52,030 nucleotides of DNA. Source: Bacillus gaemokensis. Lineage in GTDB: Bacteria > Bacillota > Bacilli > Bacillales > Bacillaceae_G. Under the pieces are notes generated by a model. That model searched no databases. It was not told the DNA's origin and was given only the letters and a program-made list of their open reading frames with translations. Shown here piece after piece: positions 2,975-49,326 of this stretch. Where the stretch lies: NCBI RefSeq assembly GCF_001590835.1, contig NZ_LTAQ01000017.1:33766-85795 (forward strand), written 5' to 3'. How positions within the stretch are numbered: the stretch's first letter is position 1; the number at the start of each line of letters is the position of its first letter. The position numbers were made by a program, and so were the translations under genes.

Positions 2975-3142
2975 CTATGATTCTACAGTGGTCTGACCCC
3001 ATTTGGTGAGACCATTAATAATTGTACGAAATGAATAGCGTTTTTCTTGTATTAAGACGATGTGGTTAACTACGATAGGTAAAGCTTCGATGCTATCTCT
3101 GCCTTTTCTTCCGCTCCAACTGTATCCACAGCTTGTTAAGAA
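2975..3142 (-). pseudogene. C-terminal fragment, polysaccharide-deacetylase-like
   Basis: An open frame of about 55 codons has no start and runs WSGRKGRDSIEALPIVV, then LIQEKRYSFRTI, then TKWGQTTVES and stop. The pattern of a hydrophobic helix with EALP followed by an 'xxxKxYxFxTI' strand is what ends NodB-type polysaccharide deacetylases. The assignment rests on that short pattern only. The catalytic domain is absent, so the piece is non-functional. Confidence 0.35.
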
Positions 3143-3205
3143 TTAGGGAATTTTAAGGTGACATGACATGCGTCAGGCTCCATAATTGTAAAGTGTTTTA
3201 GTATT

Positions 3206-4260
3206 CTACGCTTGAACCGAAAATAGCCTTTTATTTAACTTTGGAATATACATTACTAAAAATACAGAACGTCCTATACTAAATACGATAAAGGCGAACC
3301 ATAAGCCGTGATTTTGAAAGCTAGACACTGCGATAAATTGAGCAACGAGATAAGCAATCAATGCCAAAATCATCGAGTTTCGAATGGGTGCTGCTTCTGT
3401 TGTTCCTGTAAAAATACCATAAATAATAATTCCAAAGCTTGCCGAAAGAAGGAATAGCGTAATCCATATTCCATAGCTGTTTGCCAACTCAATAACACTT
3501 GGTACACTCGTAAATAGTGTAATTATATTATGACCAAACAAGGTGTAAATACCTGCGATAAAACAGGACGAAAAGATCGCCCACTGACACGATAGTGAAA
3601 GTGTCTTTTTGTACAATTGTTTATCTTTTTCCCCAATTGCTTTTCCTACAAAAATACTAGAAGCATTCGCAAATCCGTCAAAGCAGTAAGCCATGATGTA
3701 ATGAATTTGGATAAGAACAACATTTGCTGCCAAAACCTCTGTTCCAAAGGAAGCCCCTTTCGCTGTGAACATATTAAACATGGTTAACAAACAAAATGTT
3801 CTTATGAATAAATCGCGGTTAACGCTAATCATTTTTTTGAACGAAGCAAGATTAAAAATTTCTTTTAAAGGAAGCTGCTTACATGTAAAAGGAACAGCCT
3901 TCCATATAATGATGATACCTATCATAAAGGCCATTATTTCCGATATTAAGGTTGCCGCAGAAGAATAAAAATATTCCCTACTACAATTGCCACTACAAAT
4001 GGTCTTGTTAGGGCTAAAACCCCTTGCATATCACCGTTTGCTCCATACGCTTGAGCAGCAAAGCCCGATGTACTCACTCGCAAAAAACCAAATAACCAAT
4101 ACATCGTATTAAGAATGATGGTTCCTACAGCCACTCCCCCAATATAAGCAGGTTCAGGCAGCTGCCCGACAACTGCTGTATCTACAGCCCCTAATAAAGG
4201 GGTTGTTATAGTTGAAATGATCAAGGGAATGGCTAATGTAAGATAGGATCGATGATTCAT
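3206..4260 (-). pseudogene. MATE-family (DinF-like) multidrug/metabolite exporter, broken
   Basis: The first part starts with NHRSYLTLAIPLIIS and carries PLLGAVDTAVVGQLP, a hallmark of the first helices of MATE exporters. It stops at about 3946. The second part, in another frame from about 3960 to 3206, carries the later helices, ending near LNKRLFSVQA. The two parts total about 346 residues against about 440 for the family, so roughly 90-100 residues and the reading frame were lost at the junction near 3945-3960. The start lies 12 bp after nikE behind AAGGAGG, so it is the last gene of the nik operon. It may have exported a metal-related compound, but that is inferred from position only. Confidence 0.88.
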
Positions 4261-18272: not shown

Positions 18273-18623
18273 TTAAGAAAATACATTTAAGTTCCAAATA
18301 ATTATCGTCGTAGATAATATTAAACAGAGTGTTGCAGGAATAATCATTAAGATAGATTGATGTGCCCGAAAAATATGAGCATGCATGGCTCCGACCATGA
18401 GAACTACTAATAATATATTTGATCCCAGAGCTAAGTATTGATTCCAGATACCACCGATTATTCCTATTGCTCCAACAATTTCAATAAAACCGATTATACA
18501 CATGAGCCATAATGGATATTGATAGTGTTGCCAATGTTCAACCTGAAAAGGTATACGGAAAAGTTTTATGAATCCCCCTACTAAAATAAAAATTGCTAAA
18601 ACTACCTGGAGAACAATCATCAT
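18273..18623 (-). CDS. DoxX-family small membrane protein
   Basis: 116 residues with four membrane helices. The first, ending VGGFIKLFRIP, and the second, with CIIGFIEIVGAIGIIGGIW, carry the Gly-rich pattern of DoxX-like proteins. The third has SNILLVVLMVGAMHAHIFRA. These proteins sit in the membrane and have varied roles in redox or sulfur metabolism; none can be assigned here. AAAGGAG precedes the start. The gene stands alone and looks intact. Confidence 0.75.
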   Translation of the reverse strand: MMIVLQVVLAIFILVGGFIKLFRIPFQVEHWQHYQYPLWLMCIIGFIEIVGAIGIIGGIWNQYLALGSNILLVVLMVGAMHAHIFRAHQSILMIIPATLCLILSTTIIIWNLNVFS

Positions 18624-19077
18624 TCGAGTTCGCTCCTTTTAAGATCTTGTTTGTTTCCGTTTTCATTTACAAATAACTAGATATATATGTATTTTATAAA
18701 TAACAGAAAGAGTAACATACATATTTTAACGTTTTTATACGCTAAGAACTAAATAGTAGCTAAAAAAGTTGTTCATCAGGATGACCTTACTGTTTACATA
18801 TTACCTAACAAATTCACTTTGTTTTGCTGACTATACCGTGACTCATAAGTAACCCCCTCCTGTTAGTTTGTTCTTGTTTAACTATTTTCCCCCCTCCTTT
18901 TCCTTAATTTTATCATTTGGAGAAATTAATTTATTGTACAAATTTGGATGAATAGGATATTCATGTGAGGTTGATATACCCGTCATATTATTAGTAGTCA
19001 ACGATGCATAAAATTTTCGTTATGGCGGTAATTAAAAATCTTAGATTAATGGCAAAGGGATGGTACCCCATTAATCC

Positions 19078-19463
19078 TTTTTTCTCTATAACTAAAGAAA
19101 GTTATTAATACCAGATAAACAAATGTAGAAGACCTTTTGCTATTCATCTATTAAAGTAAGGGTTTGTTGATGTAAATCAAGGTTGCAAACCCGTCCCTTA
19201 CATGTTTGTAAAAATCCACTCTGATAGTAATCAATAGTGATTAAGTGATTTTTTGCTAATTTTCTTAAGAACATGGATATATCCCCTTTCTCACTACTAA
19301 TCTATATAAATAGCCTGTAAGTAAAAGAATATAGGCTAGGTAAAAAATTCAAAAACCATCCTTTAAAGCGCTTTCAAACATAAGCTAATAGAAACGTACC
19401 TTTAATTTATAATCAAAAGTACAGAATCTGACCAAAAAGTACAGGTTTTTATAAAATGATTTT
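19078..19463. repeat. YolD-repeat family, copy 2
   Basis: About 385 bp, around 90% like 51420-51805 by eye, with the same order of parts: small minus-strand gene, leader, GAAAGCGCTTT palindrome, AATCAAAAGTACAGAATCT word. It stops before the IS231-like palindrome at 19473. The 450 bp before it (18624-19077) hold no gene that I can support. Confidence 0.88.
19090..19274 (-). pseudogene. YolD-like small gene, copy 2 (internal stop)
   Basis: Reads MFLRKLAKNHLITIDYYQSG and continues as in the copy at 51430-51612, but has TAG in place of a Gln codon about 45 residues in and an altered 3' end. The truncated product would lack the last strand. Confidence 0.78.
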
Positions 19464-39097: not shown

Positions 39098-39399
39098 TTT
39101 TATCACCTTATACATGTACTCTACTAGGAGTAAAATTCTGAGAAACCTGGTATTTGCTTAATAAAAAATCCCTATAAGACTAAGAAACAGAACGGCGAGA
39201 CATTATGCTTATTCAGTACCGAACGCTAGTTACCACTAAGACTTTCTGTACTAAAATACGATTTTTTATTACAATTTGTTAGATATTATCTCCTTTTGCC
39301 TTATTTATATGCTCACATTCAAATTAAAGAAATATAAGTATGCAATGATACCTCTTAAAGAAAAGGCTCTGTTAAAGTTCAATATTGATAATAAGCGTA

Positions 39400-39437
39400 A
39401 AAAATAGAACTTCCGATTTTGTGGAAGTTCTATTTTT
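39400..39437. terminator. Terminator at the left end of the IS1595 transposon
   Basis: AAAAATAGAACTTCC at 39400-39414 pairs perfectly with 39423-39437 and has A/T runs at both sides. It lies just inside the left terminal repeat and would stop transcripts leaving or entering the element. Confidence 0.88.
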
Positions 39438-39444
39438 AATTATT

Positions 39445-39482
39445 TTCTTCTTCAACTAACGCCCCCGTTAGTTGAAGAAGAA
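39445..39482. repeat. AACTAACG palindrome (17-bp perfect stem)
   Basis: TTCTTCTTCAACTAACG at 39445-39461 pairs without mismatch with 39466-39482 around CCCC. Related, weaker copies are at 39559-39585, 40428-40445, 40551-40580 and 49231-49250. Most are inside the IS1595 transposon, and the last is upstream of the AGCS symporter's terminator. Confidence 0.8.
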
Positions 39483-39593
39483 AAAGAGACGCTTATTAAA
39501 CTCGCGCCCTTTAATGGAATAAAAAAAATTGAAACACAGATGAAATAGGCTTATTTTTTCTTCTAATAACGTACACGTTAGTCAAATAAATAA

Positions 39594-40382
39594 TTATTGT
39601 ACTTTCGATATAAAGTTATGAACTGTCTTATTAAAAACATGGGGTTGACAAAGGTTACTTGGGTCAAAAGAATCATTAATAACCTGTATCTCTGAATTTT
39701 TTATTAAATTAGCTACTTGTTTCATCATCTGAACACCTAATTTAGTATGGTCTCCAACCAAACAAAGGGTCGGAGCTTCTATAATCGATAAATGTTTATT
39801 AAATTTAATTTTATTTATTGCTTTTCTTTGAATTTTAGCTTCATGTTTTCTCATGTTAAACATTACACTTTCCATCTCTGTGCTAGCCAAAGCCCATCTT
39901 TTATACGAGGCTTTTGTTAATTGGGCTAACCACTTTTTAGGGAAATTAATAACCCAAGTTTGGTTAGCACCAATCATAGCTAATAATTTTTGAAAGGAAT
40001 CAATGGACGTGTCACAAAAACTATCCACTATTACTAATGCCTTAACAGTTTCGGGATAAGTAATGGCTAACTTTTGAATTAAAACACCGCCATACGAAAC
40101 TCCAACAAATATTGCAGCTTCAATCTTTAAAAGGTTTAAAATTTCCTTTATATCATTTGTTTGCATTTCCAAAACACTTTCAAAGTGACAGTCTAGTTTT
40201 CCAGAATTTCCATTACCTCTTAAATCTATTAAAATTACTTCGAAAAAGTTTTTAAAATACTCTACTTGTGGTTTATACATCGAGGAAGAAGCACCTAATC
40301 CATGTATAAAAATAAGAGGTCTCCCTTTACCATAAGATTCATAAAATATTTTAATTCCGTCTTTAGTTCTTAAATAAGGCAT
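39594..40382 (-). CDS. Alpha/beta hydrolase, cargo of the IS1595 transposon
   Basis: 262 residues. The oxyanion strand is PLIFIHGLGASSSMYKP, the nucleophile elbow is GVSYGG with the catalytic Ser, then the acid in LVGDHTK and the His in QPHVFN, all in the order of the esterase/lactonase group. The substrate is unknown; such cargo could be an esterase or a detoxifying enzyme. The ATG at 40382 follows AAGGGGGAGAG. The gene is intact, whereas the transposase around it is broken, which suggests selection for the cargo or recent decay of the transposase. Confidence 0.85.
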   Translation of the reverse strand: MPYLRTKDGIKIFYESYGKGRPLIFIHGLGASSSMYKPQVEYFKNFFEVILIDLRGNGNSGKLDCHFESVLEMQTNDIKEILNLLKIEAAIFVGVSYGGVLIQKLAITYPETVKALVIVDSFCDTSIDSFQKLLAMIGANQTWVINFPKKWLAQLTKASYKRWALASTEMESVMFNMRKHEAKIQRKAINKIKFNKHLSIIEAPTLCLVGDHTKLGVQMMKQVANLIKNSEIQVINDSFDPSNLCQPHVFNKTVHNFISKVQ

Positions 40383-40586
40383 TTCTCTCCCCCTTAACAC
40401 AAAAATTTCACCATCATCTTCTTATCCTGCTTACGTTAGTTAAGTACATTCCCTCACAATCTTCTATATACTTTAACAAAATATCTAATCTCCTATTAAA
40501 GTTTTATTCCACAAAATGGCCCGATTGTTGTACACAAGTTAAACAATACTCTTCAACTAACCTGCCCGTTGAATAAGAAACAAAAT

Positions 40587-40811
40587 TTATATCGTGAACT
40601 TAGATAACCTAAGTGTATGATATGTTTCTGTATTTTGTATTAGATTTCCTTTAATAATCAAGTCTTTCATAGTGACTTCATTTCTCTGATGCTGAATACT
40701 TTCTAATACTTGAAACCAAGTAAGATAATTGTCCAAATATTTGGTTGCAACCCCATTAAATCGTTGTACCCACGCTTTAAGTCTGCGGTGGTAATTGTTT
40801 ACGTTTACCTT
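40587..40811 (-). pseudogene. IS1595-family transposase, C-terminal part
   Basis: Open frame starting [20 protein letters not shown], then [18 protein letters not shown], then a 35-residue tail. NNYHxRLKxWxxxFxGVATKYLxNYLxWF is the C-terminal signature of IS1595/ISXO2 transposases. It is the direct continuation of the N-terminal part that ends at 42673, on the same strand, with 1,861 bp between. Confidence 0.85.
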
Positions 40812-40913
40812 GCTAATAGTTAAGAATTTCTCCTAAATATAAAAGTAGTATACAATTCACATCAATACCAATTTTTAAATCGTTATTTATACATTCGATT
40901 ATAAAAATAAAAA

Positions 40914-40946
40914 GGACAATTAGCCCTCATAATGGACTAATTATCC
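40914..40946. terminator. Hairpin terminator after the ABC module
   Basis: GGACAATTAG at 40914-40923 pairs with CTAATTATCC at 40937-40946 (one G-T). It lies between the small ORF and the transposase 3' part. The remaining 40947-41214 has no gene that I can support. Confidence 0.6.
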
Positions 40947-41214
40947 TATAAATTATTATCTAATTTTAATCATAACTATTATGTGACATCTTTTGTTTTT
41001 CATGACTTTTTACATTTTAGGTCTGATAAAATGCTTATTGCGCGATTTGGTTCCATTGCTACACAAAGGCCTTTTTATAGTTTTTTGTATTCGATAAAGA
41101 AAACTAATAAATTTTCATCTATCAACTATACCGAAGTCATATTCGCTATAATCAAATAGTTAGAGAAAAATTTATACTCATTTCTGTTGTTAGGTTTCCT
41201 TAGCGTGACAAAAT

Positions 41215-41301
41215 TCACATTAGTTTATGCTGGAATTTGTTTAATAGTAAATGTTCTCCAAATAGTTCTTCAATGTATTGATTGAATTGTTGTATATGCA
41301 T
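41215..41301 (-). CDS. 28-residue ORF after the ABC module
   Basis: MHIQQFNQYIEELFGEHLLL then NKFQHKLM and stop. GGGGAGAGGAAAAG lies directly before the ATG, a strong site, 38 bp after the ATPase stop. It could be a small peptide of the bacteriocin-type module or the head of a truncated gene. I do not recognise it. Confidence 0.35.
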   Translation of the reverse strand: MHIQQFNQYIEELFGEHLLLNKFQHKLM

Positions 41302-41339
41302 CTTTTCCTCTCCCCTTAATATTCTCATTTCCGCAAAAA

Positions 41340-41977
41340 TTATATTTCAATGACTCTATTGCATACTTGTGCTACATATGAATCATGGGTGAAAATAACA
41401 ATTGTTTTTCCCTCTTTATTTAGATTTTTTAAAATTTGTATAATTTCATTTCTATTGTTATCGTCTAAAGAGCCTGTTGGTTCATCGGCCAATATTAACT
41501 CGCACGGCTTTAGGAGTATCCTTGCTATGGCGACTCTTTGTTGTTCACCACCTGAAAGCTCGTGTATTTTTTGCTGTAATGATACGCACAGCCCAACTTT
41601 TTCTAAGGCGACTGTTTTTAATTCTTTCTTTTCCTTCTTTGTTTTTTTGCATAAATCAAGGGAATTTCTAAATTTTTATTTACAGTATCATTGTCGATGA
41701 GTGCGTAATTTTGAAAAAGATACGACATTTTCGTTCTCAGAAGCTTATTTGCTTTACTAGAACTCATACTAGGACTCTCTTCACCAAACAATTTAACGAC
41801 TCCACTATCTGGATTTTCAAGCATTCCCATAATATTAAGAATCGTTGTTTTACCAGATCCACTTTTCCCTGTAATCGCAACCATTTCCCCTTCACAAATT
41901 TTCAAATTAAACTCATCTAAAACCGCATGATTGCCATAACTTTTACTAACATCTATCAGTTCACATATATACTGCAT
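41340..41977 (-). pseudogene. Bacteriocin-exporter type ABC ATPase, one-base frameshift
   Basis: First frame, from the ATG at 41977: YICELIDVSKSYGNHAVLDE, Walker A TGKSGSGKTTIL, and Q-loop LFQNYALIDND. It leaves frame in a run of seven A near 41645; eight A would keep it open. In the other frame the gene continues with [18 protein letters not shown] (signature), [13 protein letters not shown] (Walker B), FTHDS (switch) and the stop at 41340. At about 211 codons it is full length for the ATPases that pair with DUF1430 proteins. Everything else is intact, so this is either fresh decay or slippage-controlled expression. Confidence 0.88.
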
Positions 41978-42672
41978 TCGTTTCTATGAACCTCCTTTAA
42001 TGACCGTTGTTTTTTTCTTCGCTCCATAGTGATTAATGCGATAATAGACGCGATAAATTCAATTAAAATAAGCATTGCCACCGCCGTAAACAATTTCATA
42101 TCAAACTCTTTTTTTACGATGAAGCAAATTGATAGTTGTACGACCCACGTCAATACAAATCACCACATGTATCCTCTATACGTTCTAAAAAAACTTATGC
42201 CAAATAAGCGATGGACCACTATTTTCTGCTGATTTTTATTGAAATACACAATAATATTCTGTGTAACCAAAAATAATATGCCGACAATTAATCCACTAGT
42301 AACCATGAATAACATTTTTATAGTTTGCTGCATATTGTATATATCTTTTAAAATATATTGGTCAACTGTTACAAGATATCTTAAATTATCATCTAACCCT
42401 AATCTTTTAAGCTCTGGCTCTAGTGTCTTATACGTCAATCCTACATCTCGCTTCATCAACTTAATCTTTAAAGGGTCGTTCGCTCCTCCCCCTAATATAG
42501 TGTCTCTTTCTCCAACAAGACTATTATTCTCGGTCATAACCTCAATAATTTCATCTTTGATCTTATTATGATTAGACTTATATATATCTGGATTGAAACT
42601 AAAGATTTCCTGATTGTTCTTTATCCAAATCACTTCTAATTGTCGATTTCGTAAATGATTTGGAACCTTACT
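41956..42672 (-). pseudogene. DUF1430 bacteriocin-associated membrane protein, C-terminal part
   Basis: About 238 codons: an extracellular part (VPNHLRNRQLEVIWIKNNQE, then NNSLVGERDTILGGGANDPL), a helix MLFMVTSGLIVGILFLVTQN, then the cytoplasmic KNQQKIVVHRLFGISFFRTY, which is typical of these ABC-3-like permeases. An in-frame TGA follows YMW at 42160, where a second Trp is expected, and the frame then continues through two more helices to 41956. The family has about 650-680 residues, so two thirds are missing. The 5' edge is fused in frame to the IS1595 transposase. The end overlaps the ATPase start. Confidence 0.75.
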
Positions 42673-43503
42673 CTGGATGTGATAAAGACCCTTTGTGCGA
42701 ACCTTACCATCAGACTTGAACTGATAAATATTCATACCTTTTTCAGTAGCATATGTTTTAAAGGCACGCCAAGAGTCGGTGCATAAAACATTTTCACTTG
42801 AAAGTTTATGTCCGATAGCTTTGTCCAATTGCTCTTTTGTTAATCTACCCATTCCCAGTGTCTGCGAAAAAGTCAACTTATCACGGTCCCTTGCAACTAA
42901 AACACATACTTGTTCGTTGCTTATTCCACGTTTCTTTGCGGAACCACCACGTTTGGGGGGCTTTCTATCTTTAATCTTTCTTTGTCCTTTTTCTGAGTAC
43001 AGGAAATAGGTATCGTCCATTTCGACGATACCTTCGAAACTCGATATATCCATTTGTTTTAATGATGATAAAAGTTTGTGCCTCCAGTAGCATAATGTGA
43101 CATGAGATACATTTCCAACTAATTCAGCAGACTTACGAAGTGAGTATCCTTCTATCATACATTCTACAAATTTTATCCATTGGTTAAGACGACGTGTTCG
43201 ATACAGAGCGGTATTTGTAAGGTCAGTAAATGTCATTTTACACGCTTTACAGCGATAACGTTGTTTTTTAACTTCTTCACCATCAACAATAGTTGAATAT
43301 TTACCAAACCGAACAATATGCTCCGACTCTCAATCAGGACAATGATAGCCACTCTTGTTTTTACGCTCAGATATTTCTTGTAGTACAGTTCCTGTCGAGG
43401 ACGATGCAGTAAGAGCATCAATTAAATACTCTCGTAGTCGATGTTTCTCTGCTGGATTTAATTTTTAAATGACTTTAAGAATATCAGTTGCTCTCACGGT
43501 CAT
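42673..43503 (-). pseudogene. IS1595-family transposase, N-terminal part, two nonsense codons
   Basis: From the ATG at 43503: TVRATDILKVI, TAA, KLNPAEKHRLREYLIDAL, then the zinc ribbon HCPD followed by TGA (a Cys codon turned stop), then YRCKACK. The DDE domain follows with VEMDDTYFLYSEKG (first Asp) and VLCTDSWRAFKTYATEKG (second Asp). It ends at GLYHIQ, after which the sequence changes to the DUF1430 gene. A truncated product could start inside, at 43236, but would lack the zinc ribbon. Confidence 0.88.
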
Positions 43504-43587
43504 CACCAACTTTTATATAGTTAAACCTATTGTAGAACGTAAGTTCCTGTGAATCAATTATCAACAACAAACATTAACAGAGCCAAA

Positions 43588-43620
43588 GAAAAAAAGATGC
43601 TAGATAGCATCCTTTTTCTT
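43588..43620 (-). terminator. Terminator of the APC permease gene
   Basis: AAAAAGATGCT at 43591-43601 pairs with AGCATCCTTTTT, with T-runs in the minus-strand direction, 12 bp after the permease stop. The right target duplication of the IS1595 transposon (43585-43592) is within its A-run. Confidence 0.75.
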
Positions 43621-48918: not shown

Positions 48919-49326
48919 GGCTATTCCCTTTTTCTATAGATTGATAGGTAAGGTAATGTTCTAAAGATATAGTATATTCAAGATTTATGATTTCTATCCC
49001 ATAAACTTACTATTTATAAGCTATATGAATCTCTAGAATAATTGAATATGGTCAACTCAAAAACAGTCATCTTTTTCTTATTCTACCCATCTACGCGGCT
49101 AAACATATATTCACTTGATAGACCTATGATATTTGAGAAATCGTTTTAAAGAAATATACTATTCCTTTTGCTGTTGTTCAGGTCTCTCTTTTCAACATCT
49201 TAATATAGTTGCAATATATTAACTCCTTTTACTAACCTGCATCCGTTAGTTAAGAAAGAATCTGTTTCAAAACTCTTGATTTACGACAATTTTTTATTGT
49301 AATCAATTTTATTTGCACTAGAACCA

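Follow-up and report, generated by a model that had tools for sequence, protein, structure and literature searches.

What kind of mobile unit occupies positions 39365 to 43584 of the 52,030-nucleotide stretch of Bacillus gaemokensis DNA analysed here (the window; contig NZ_LTAQ01000017.1 of assembly GCF_001590835.1), and by what route did it acquire its cargo? Insertion sequences (IS) that carry passenger genes are termed tIS (PMC7986276), and tISCpe8 and tISSag10 (= MTnSag1) are known members of this kind in the IS1595 family (PMC5704250). The unit in the window resembles them in having an IS1595-type DDE transposase, inverted ends, an 8-bp target duplication and a passenger between the transposase and one end. 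It differs in that its transposase is no longer intact and in that its passenger slot is bracketed by cores resembling the attC sites of integrons, which more distant members lack. The locus is probably best read as a dead IS1595-family tIS whose passenger slot is a cassette dock, the passengers being exchanged at these cores by a Xer-type recombinase.

The case for a dock begins at the edges of the slot. The hydrolase gene, which occupies the position that holds the passenger in relatives, is bracketed by three copies of a hairpin repeat (family D1) built on the core AACTAAC, 6 or 7 nt, GTTAGTT. The features of this region are as follows.

39400 to 39437, no strand assigned: terminator-like hairpin with 15-nt arms, between the element end and the core; a similar hairpin stands in the same place in relatives
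39454 to 39473, minus strand: downstream core, AACTAAC-GGGGGC-GTTAGTT, of the R''-L'' type half of an attC-like site
39564 to 39583, minus strand: second, degenerate core (3 mismatches), directly after the hydrolase stop
39594 to 40400, minus strand: alpha/beta hydrolase of 268 aa, the passenger, an intact open reading frame (ORF)
40555 to 40574, minus strand: upstream core of the L'-R' type half, shortened and with 3 mismatches, some 16 nt beyond the C-terminal end of the transposase

Together, the cores of the slot resemble an attC-like site split in two. Among the 45 records of a plasmid search, three combine a related transposase with a slot that is occupied differently: by DUF6176 plus a small ORF in Pontibacillus (L013), by dfrD in Enterococcus faecalis (L014), and by an NTF2-like gene and two further genes in Listeria innocua (L015). 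Between the window and these three, DNA similarity stops at the cores on both sides. On the left, it stops at element position 107-118, where the core spans 90-109; on the right, it stops at 1191-1204, where the core spans 1191-1210.

The arrangement recurs among the closest relatives. The subclade, defined by a transposase about 80% or more identical to that of L013 over most of what remains, consists of the window, L013, L014, L015, L020, L061, L048 and L019. A core with at most 3 mismatches of 14 lies about 20 nt after the transposase stop in six of these eight, and one lies on the downstream side, ahead of the terminator hairpin, in seven; any such core after the transposase was found in only one of 20 more distant elements. 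Where it is clearest, the upstream core stands in the surroundings TTTCTTATnnAACTAAC-GGGGCAG-GTTAGTT, and the spacer of the downstream core is GGGTGC or a variant. Two other stretches touch on these repeats. Directly after the upstream core lies a conserved TTGTTTAACTTGTG..CAACAATCGGGCC stretch, found at 40490-40549 in the window and at 2911-2949 and 3560-3598 on the Sporosarcina plasmid L016; in Peribacillus frigoritolerans (NZ_CP084540.1, 236641-236694), this stretch adjoins a recombinase remnant. Far from the element, an isolated core-like repeat, AACTAAC-8 nt-GTTAGTA, occurs on the minus strand at 49230-49251 (E=0.052 in the window) and may be the scar of a lost cassette.

Whole sites of this design are found elsewhere in Bacillota with genes between them. 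A 6-kb plasmid of Sporosarcina carries an ASCH gene and a small ORF in a tandem arrangement bounded by such sites and free of IS1595. In plasmids, a whole site reads R'' (AACTAAC), 6 nt, L'', a top, L', 7 nt and R' (GTTAGTT). A covariance model made from ten sites, one of them from genome G121, found sites outside its training set (best E=5e-12 in that search). Among 200 Bacilli genomes, at least one site at E<=0.001 was present in 11 and at least two in six, site counts per genome being lower bounds. When 280 kb of genome G103 and 20 kb of genome G056 were scanned, 86 matches at E<=0.05 were obtained, three of them in G056 and six representing the other strand of a palindromic site. With such duplicates dropped, 49 sites lie within the first 143 kb of one G103 contig, all on the same strand. 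G103 as a whole carries a superintegron-like set of attC-like sites spread over several contigs (L106-L119). Exactly one ORF of at least 60 aa lies in 21 of the 43 G103 intervals shorter than 4 kb and in 20 of the 28 shorter than 1.2 kb. The last same-strand ORF ends no more than 32 nt before the next site in 21 of the 38 intervals that have such an ORF.

The likeness to integrons concerns both the sites and their order. As in the attC sites and the clusters of attC sites lacking integron integrases (CALIN) described in PMC2727003 and PMC9024848, the Bacillota sites are two-arm palindromes (R''-L''...L'-R') with non-complementary spacers and a variable top, and the loci contain short genes in series. 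The window has only site halves on either side of its cargo, the whole sites being found in arrays elsewhere. Pairing within the sites is supported by covariation, as all 7 outer base pairs change on both sides. In the alignment, 80% of cells are paired, compared with 25-51% in slid controls, a difference that is favoured by structure-fitting and by the retention of other-strand duplicates. Single-strand DNA folds of three sites gave z values of -2.0, -3.8 and -3.3. Over 30 sites, the R boxes match the consensus RYYYAAC/GTTRRRY at 5.1 and 5.4 of 7 positions on average.

Some units recur in more than one array locus. Among 28 repeat pairs of at least 140 bp between array loci, many of which are recombinase copies or within-gene repeats, a box (at most 1 mismatch) lies no farther than 14 nt from every one of the four edges in three pairs, and from three of the edges in two others. 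The clearest pair, judged by eye, is a GNAT unit on plasmid pSP10-266k that is 97.7% identical over 650 bp and, in both places, starts at R'' and ends just past R'. A 402-bp unit (97%) starts at R'' and ends inside the next site, and a 372-bp unit of G103 (98%) has its edges at boxes in one place and amid other sequence in the second. Additionally, two genes of a Peribacillus frigoritolerans plasmid recur in G103 (89.0% and 90.5%), with edges not exactly on cores.

A candidate enzyme is encoded beside the arrays. An integron integrase (IntI) scoring over the TIGR02249 cut-off was found in none of 200 Bacilli genomes and in none of eight genomes and plasmids with sites or tIS. Within a site cluster of G103, on the opposite strand, lies a gene for a 281-aa tyrosine recombinase, and a copy 93% identical is found on the Sporosarcina plasmid pSP10-266k, at 18573-19412. 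The G103 protein scores 225 bits against NF040815 (XerA type; cut-off 220), the plasmid copy scores 219.5, and the G103 protein reaches 93 bits against the integron integrase model (cut-off 265). Its nearest solved relatives are XerC-like, XerD and XerA proteins, IntI4 standing lower in the ranking. Thus, the recombinase near these sites is XerA/XerD-like, which distinguishes these loci from integrons. The catalytic R, K, HxxR, H and Y positions are conserved in 14 aligned rows (the query counted twice).

Recombinase and sites tend to occur together. At E<=1e-80, the recombinase is present in seven of the 200 genomes, four of which belong to the six multi-site genomes (hypergeometric p 8e-6, or 1.5e-4 without G121, which supplied a model site). 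At E<=1e-60, it is present in seven of 72,556 plasmid records, and all six plasmid loci examined contain one or more sites at E<=1e-5. Three of these six have their best sites on the strand opposite the recombinase, and three have them on its own strand; opposite strands, as seen in several loci examined, are a further likeness to integrons. Upstream of the recombinase start codon, three of 12 loci (G103, pSP10-266k and G121) share a region that runs up to a core, beyond which the genes differ. Such a conserved region beside a recombinase would resemble an integron attI site. The two G099 copies also share this region but show no core, and the other seven of the 12 loci are too divergent to tell. 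A recombinase of this family, 66% identical, also occurs in L152 (CP053689.1, labelled Arthrobacter citreus, an actinobacterium), together with site matches confined to one strand, nine at E<=0.1 and four of these at <=0.01; the Arthrobacter citreus label may be wrong.

From these observations, a mechanism can be proposed for the window's subclade. The order within the unit is right end, transposase, a core about 20 nt past the transposase stop, passenger, second core, terminator hairpin and left end. In terms of an attC-like site, the two slot cores would be its 3' and 5' arms, and the passenger would correspond to a cassette such as those of the head-to-tail Bacillota arrays, to which it can be likened from similarity and positions at the sequence level. 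The Xer-type tyrosine recombinase encoded beside the arrays would recombine the cores, so that passengers of this tIS lineage would be exchanged by site-specific recombination while the IS1595 transposase would move the unit as a whole. A transposon circle has been proposed for MTnSag1 and tISCpe8 (PMC5704250). In such a circle, the joined ends and the transposase would fall inside one attC-like site, making the circle a cassette as well.

A broader proposal, which falls just short of an even chance in our estimation, is that Bacillota have an integron-like system without IntI. In this system, the 281-aa XerA/XerD-like recombinase and an attI-like site would capture short genes with attC-like sites of 65-80 nt, giving arrays of up to dozens of cassettes, and one IS1595 tIS lineage with site halves would serve as a roaming dock that has been loaded with the hydrolase in the window and dfrD in E. 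faecalis.

The alternative is a plain decayed tIS that gained its passengers by rare, unspecific events, the cores being terminator or promoter hairpins that travel with genes. This account draws on the single passengers that more distant tIS carry without cores, on the terminator-like hairpins with T runs that the sites contain, on the weak scores of the window's own half-sites and on the lack of the upstream core in two of the eight close relatives. Terminators do not, however, predict copies of a gene plus its site with edges at cores, a recombinase-adjacent region whose conservation stops at a core ahead of different genes, or the co-occurrence of the sites with a single recombinase. The plain tIS is therefore considered rather improbable. 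The bcr repeats of B. cereus were also considered as an identity for the hairpin repeats.

A number of observations nevertheless weigh against the reading of the slot as a cassette dock. At the locus itself, the window has half-sites only, which the whole-site model scores at E=0.011 (39454) and E=0.46 (40555) in the 52 kb; its upstream core is without part of one arm; and, within the subclade, L019 deviates at both cores and L048 at the upstream one. The three closest homologues found for the hydrolase are ordinary genes of chromosomes, with neither cores nor IS ends beside them; thus, the window hydrolase has not been seen in an array. No match to the N-terminal transposase piece came from the genomes of these three homologues, in a search whose empty result carries no weight. 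The pairing of sites and recombinase has exceptions in both directions: G184 and G191 have several sites and five genomes have a single site, all without a recombinase hit, and G030, G099 and G139 have the recombinase and no site at E<=0.001. The ORF strand bias of 65:9 in the G103 intervals is high, yet two neighbouring site-free stretches show 24:2 and 28:9, so strand uniformity is weak evidence for an array. Furthermore, only about five of the 28 repeat pairs have edges near cores in a box test that random positions pass in 13% and in which the two copies of a pair are not independent, and one of the three folded sites (the third) prefers each core folding on itself rather than on the other core.

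Is the unit that holds this slot a single transposon? The preliminary description, made from the sequence alone, had proposed inward-facing ends matching at 23 of 28 positions and an exact 8-bp duplication, and these were confirmed by measurement. The borders are as follows.

39357 to 39364, no strand assigned: left 8-bp target duplication, AAAGAAAA, read directly from the sequence
39365 to 39392, plus strand: left terminal inverted repeat, starting GGCTCTGTTAA, 82% complementary to 43557-43584
43557 to 43584, minus strand: right terminal inverted repeat, which pairs with the left end
43585 to 43592, no strand assigned: right 8-bp target duplication, AAAGAAAA, read directly from the sequence

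The two ends, 28 nt each, are complementary at 23 of 28 positions. Among 200,000 random pairs of window positions, none had ends matching at 23 of 28 or better, the best reaching 19, and identical outer 8-mers were found in eight. The octamer itself is frequent in the window (16 occurrences on one strand and 19 on the other), and its weight therefore lies in its coincidence with the ends. On the minus strand, the element runs from right end through transposase and cargo to left end. Because the ends, the duplication and the relatives, which share the layout of ends and 8-bp duplication, all agree, the 4.2-kb unit is shown to be one IS1595-family tIS bounded by these ends that was inserted once and made an 8-bp duplication. 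The flanks of the window had no match above 78% over a long stretch in 398 Bacilli genomes and in sets of 41, 11 and 15 genomes, the 15 including the 11; the best long DNA matches among the 398 were 73-78% identical, and an origin in the B. cereus group was not confirmed. The empty site was thus not seen, as no close relative of the host turned up in these searches.

The interior of the element differs from what had first been described, namely both parts of a transposase, an intact hydrolase and a bacteriocin-type ATP-binding cassette (ABC) module as joint cargo. The two transposase pieces and the open hydrolase frame stand, and the pieces do flank the ABC genes; the ABC genes are a broken insert in the transposase gene rather than part of an assembled cargo, and the hydrolase alone sits in the passenger slot. 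The features concerned are the following.

40587 to 40805, minus strand: C-terminal piece of the transposase with its stop, 72 residues, 83% identical to the Pontibacillus copy
40806 to 42672, no strand assigned: insert of 1,867 bp within the transposase gene; against the Pontibacillus protein, the pieces on either side of it join at residues 277/278
41340 to 41977, minus strand: lactococcin-972-type ABC ATPase (TIGR03608), frameshifted, in the segments 41618-41977 and 41340-41492
42166 to 42666, minus strand: C-terminal fragment of a bacteriocin-associated permease, covering TIGR01654 positions 465-625 of 681 and in frame with the transposase
42673 to 43503, minus strand: N-terminal piece of the transposase, with two in-frame stops, NF033547 144.1 bits

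Aligned to the 349-aa Pontibacillus transposase, these pieces are one gene split in two. Residues 1-277 correspond to 43503-42673 and residues 278-349 to 40805-40590, with no residue lost between them, and identity is 85% for the N-terminal piece (285 aligned residues) and 83% for the C-terminal piece. The NF033547 score of 144.1 bits is well over the cut-off of 75. The alignment shows that the ABC fragment entered the gene without loss of codons, and that stops arose, both of them ahead of the insert. Without the insert, the element would be about 2.35 kb long, near its longer relatives. Because of the two in-frame stops and the 1,867-bp insert, the element is regarded as a dead member of the IS1595-family tIS, and its own transposase is now unlikely to move it.

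The ABC genes match both families of the lactococcin-972-type exporter (TIGR03608 with TIGR01654). However, a complete ATPase and permease are lacking: the ATPase is frameshifted, and the permease fragment ends at a stop after TIGR01654 position 625. The supposed module is thus truncated, frameshifted debris inserted into the transposase, not working cargo. The roughly 530 bp downstream of the ATPase (40806-41340) contain no recognised gene and had no match among the 40 listed records of the plasmid search.

How the fragment arrived bears only on the insert and is compatible with a cassette dock. It might be what is left of a mobile element whose insertion into a transposase variant duplicated 8 bp, in keeping with the precision of the insertion and with the near-identical 8-mers ACCTTGCT and ACCTTACT (7/8) at 40807-40814 and 42665-42672. 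Relatives L013 and L014, however, align straight across this point and thus have no such 8-mer, no inverted ends are recognised at the insert edges, and nothing but the ATPase part of the insert was matched in the plasmid search; such an origin is unlikely. Far less credible still is a composite or chimeric transposon in which the ends of two IS1595 copies moved the ABC module and the hydrolase jointly. Transposase sequence does lie on either side of the ABC fragment, and the outer duplication is intact. Nonetheless, the two pieces are non-overlapping parts of one gene that join at residues 277/278 with nothing missing or repeated, and relatives show the same layout without the ABC part. A composite transposon has two IS copies flanking its cargo, and only one split transposase gene is present here. 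The same fit of the pieces speaks against ends drawn from two unrelated IS1595 copies, a possibility that had been raised at the outset.

Passenger-carrying members of the family had been thought to be few. To the contrary, carriage of a passenger is the normal state in the sample of relatives, which leans to kin of the Pontibacillus query. A transposase search of 398 Bacilli genomes at E<=1e-40 gave 43 matches in 34 genomes. From these, 39 transposase places were examined (two rows being one place, with G372:C2 and two of G239 left out), and the plasmid loci L013, L014 and L015 brought the total to 42 distinct places. Under a rule of an inverted repeat of at least 13/22 and a duplication with at most 1 mismatch, 24 of the 42 have both ends and an 8-bp duplication and 18 do not; as two are identical, 23 elements remain. 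The duplication is exact in 21 of the 23, whereas chance matches under this rule would mostly show one mismatch. One candidate, L074 (4,117 bp, inverted repeat 13/22), was judged spurious and left out of the count, and Priestia L017 has only a left-end-like stretch, with no transposase end found.

The 23 elements are 1,170-2,240 bp long. Only two are bare (1,170 and 1,239 bp), and the other 21 are at least 1,496 bp, much longer than the bare ones. In 18 of the 23, an ORF of at least 55 aa lies beside the transposase in the same orientation; in L035 and L038, the passenger ORF is on the opposite strand, and in L019, none was found on the transposase strand with ATG, GTG or TTG starts. Of the 17 passengers scanned, 14 match a Pfam family. 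These families include GNAT acetyltransferases, alpha/beta hydrolase, APH-family kinase, nucleotidyltransferases (of the Aminoglyc_resit family in L047), RibD_C and phosphoesterase, as well as YrvL, HXXEE, zf_CopZ, WapI-like, DUF6176 and DUF5680.

The three plasmid relatives are preserved to different degrees, and only the Pontibacillus element has both ends. It is flanked by two pieces annotated as glutamine synthetase and has TTTCGAAT on either side, an arrangement that supports these ends as true borders. The Listeria element retains the left end and part of the transposase. On the Enterococcus faecalis plasmid (LR961983.1), the trimethoprim-resistance gene dfrD lies between two core sites at 3140-3640 and adjoins an IS1595 transposase of the window's subclade that is 86% identical; the record starts inside the transposase, no left end is recognisable, and element ends are not seen there. 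No paper in the open PMC literature searched mentions IS1595 and dfrD together. The transposase was absent from the viral contigs searched, the element was absent from the phages searched, and no near-identical element was found in the plasmids searched.

What is known and what is new can be separated on this basis. IS1595-family tIS are known; the attC-like cores that bracket the cargo slot in the window's subclade are new here. Searches of the open PMC literature yielded no description of attC-like sites around the cargo slot of an IS1595 tIS, nor of Xer-type recombinases accompanying arrays of this kind, although either may already be published outside it. PMC8618304 names Firmicutes as one of the phyla with integrons, and the taxon models of PMC8352920 include no Firmicutes. 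With IntegronFinder 2.0, one complete integron (Limnochorda) and a few CALIN were reported in Firmicutes, and the reason for this rarity is called unclear in PMC9024848. Some of those Firmicutes CALIN could be the arrays described here. If the arrays and their recombinase work, Bacillota would own a cassette system that an IntI-based definition has missed, and, if the present reading is true, IS1595 transposons would give its cassettes a second way of moving.

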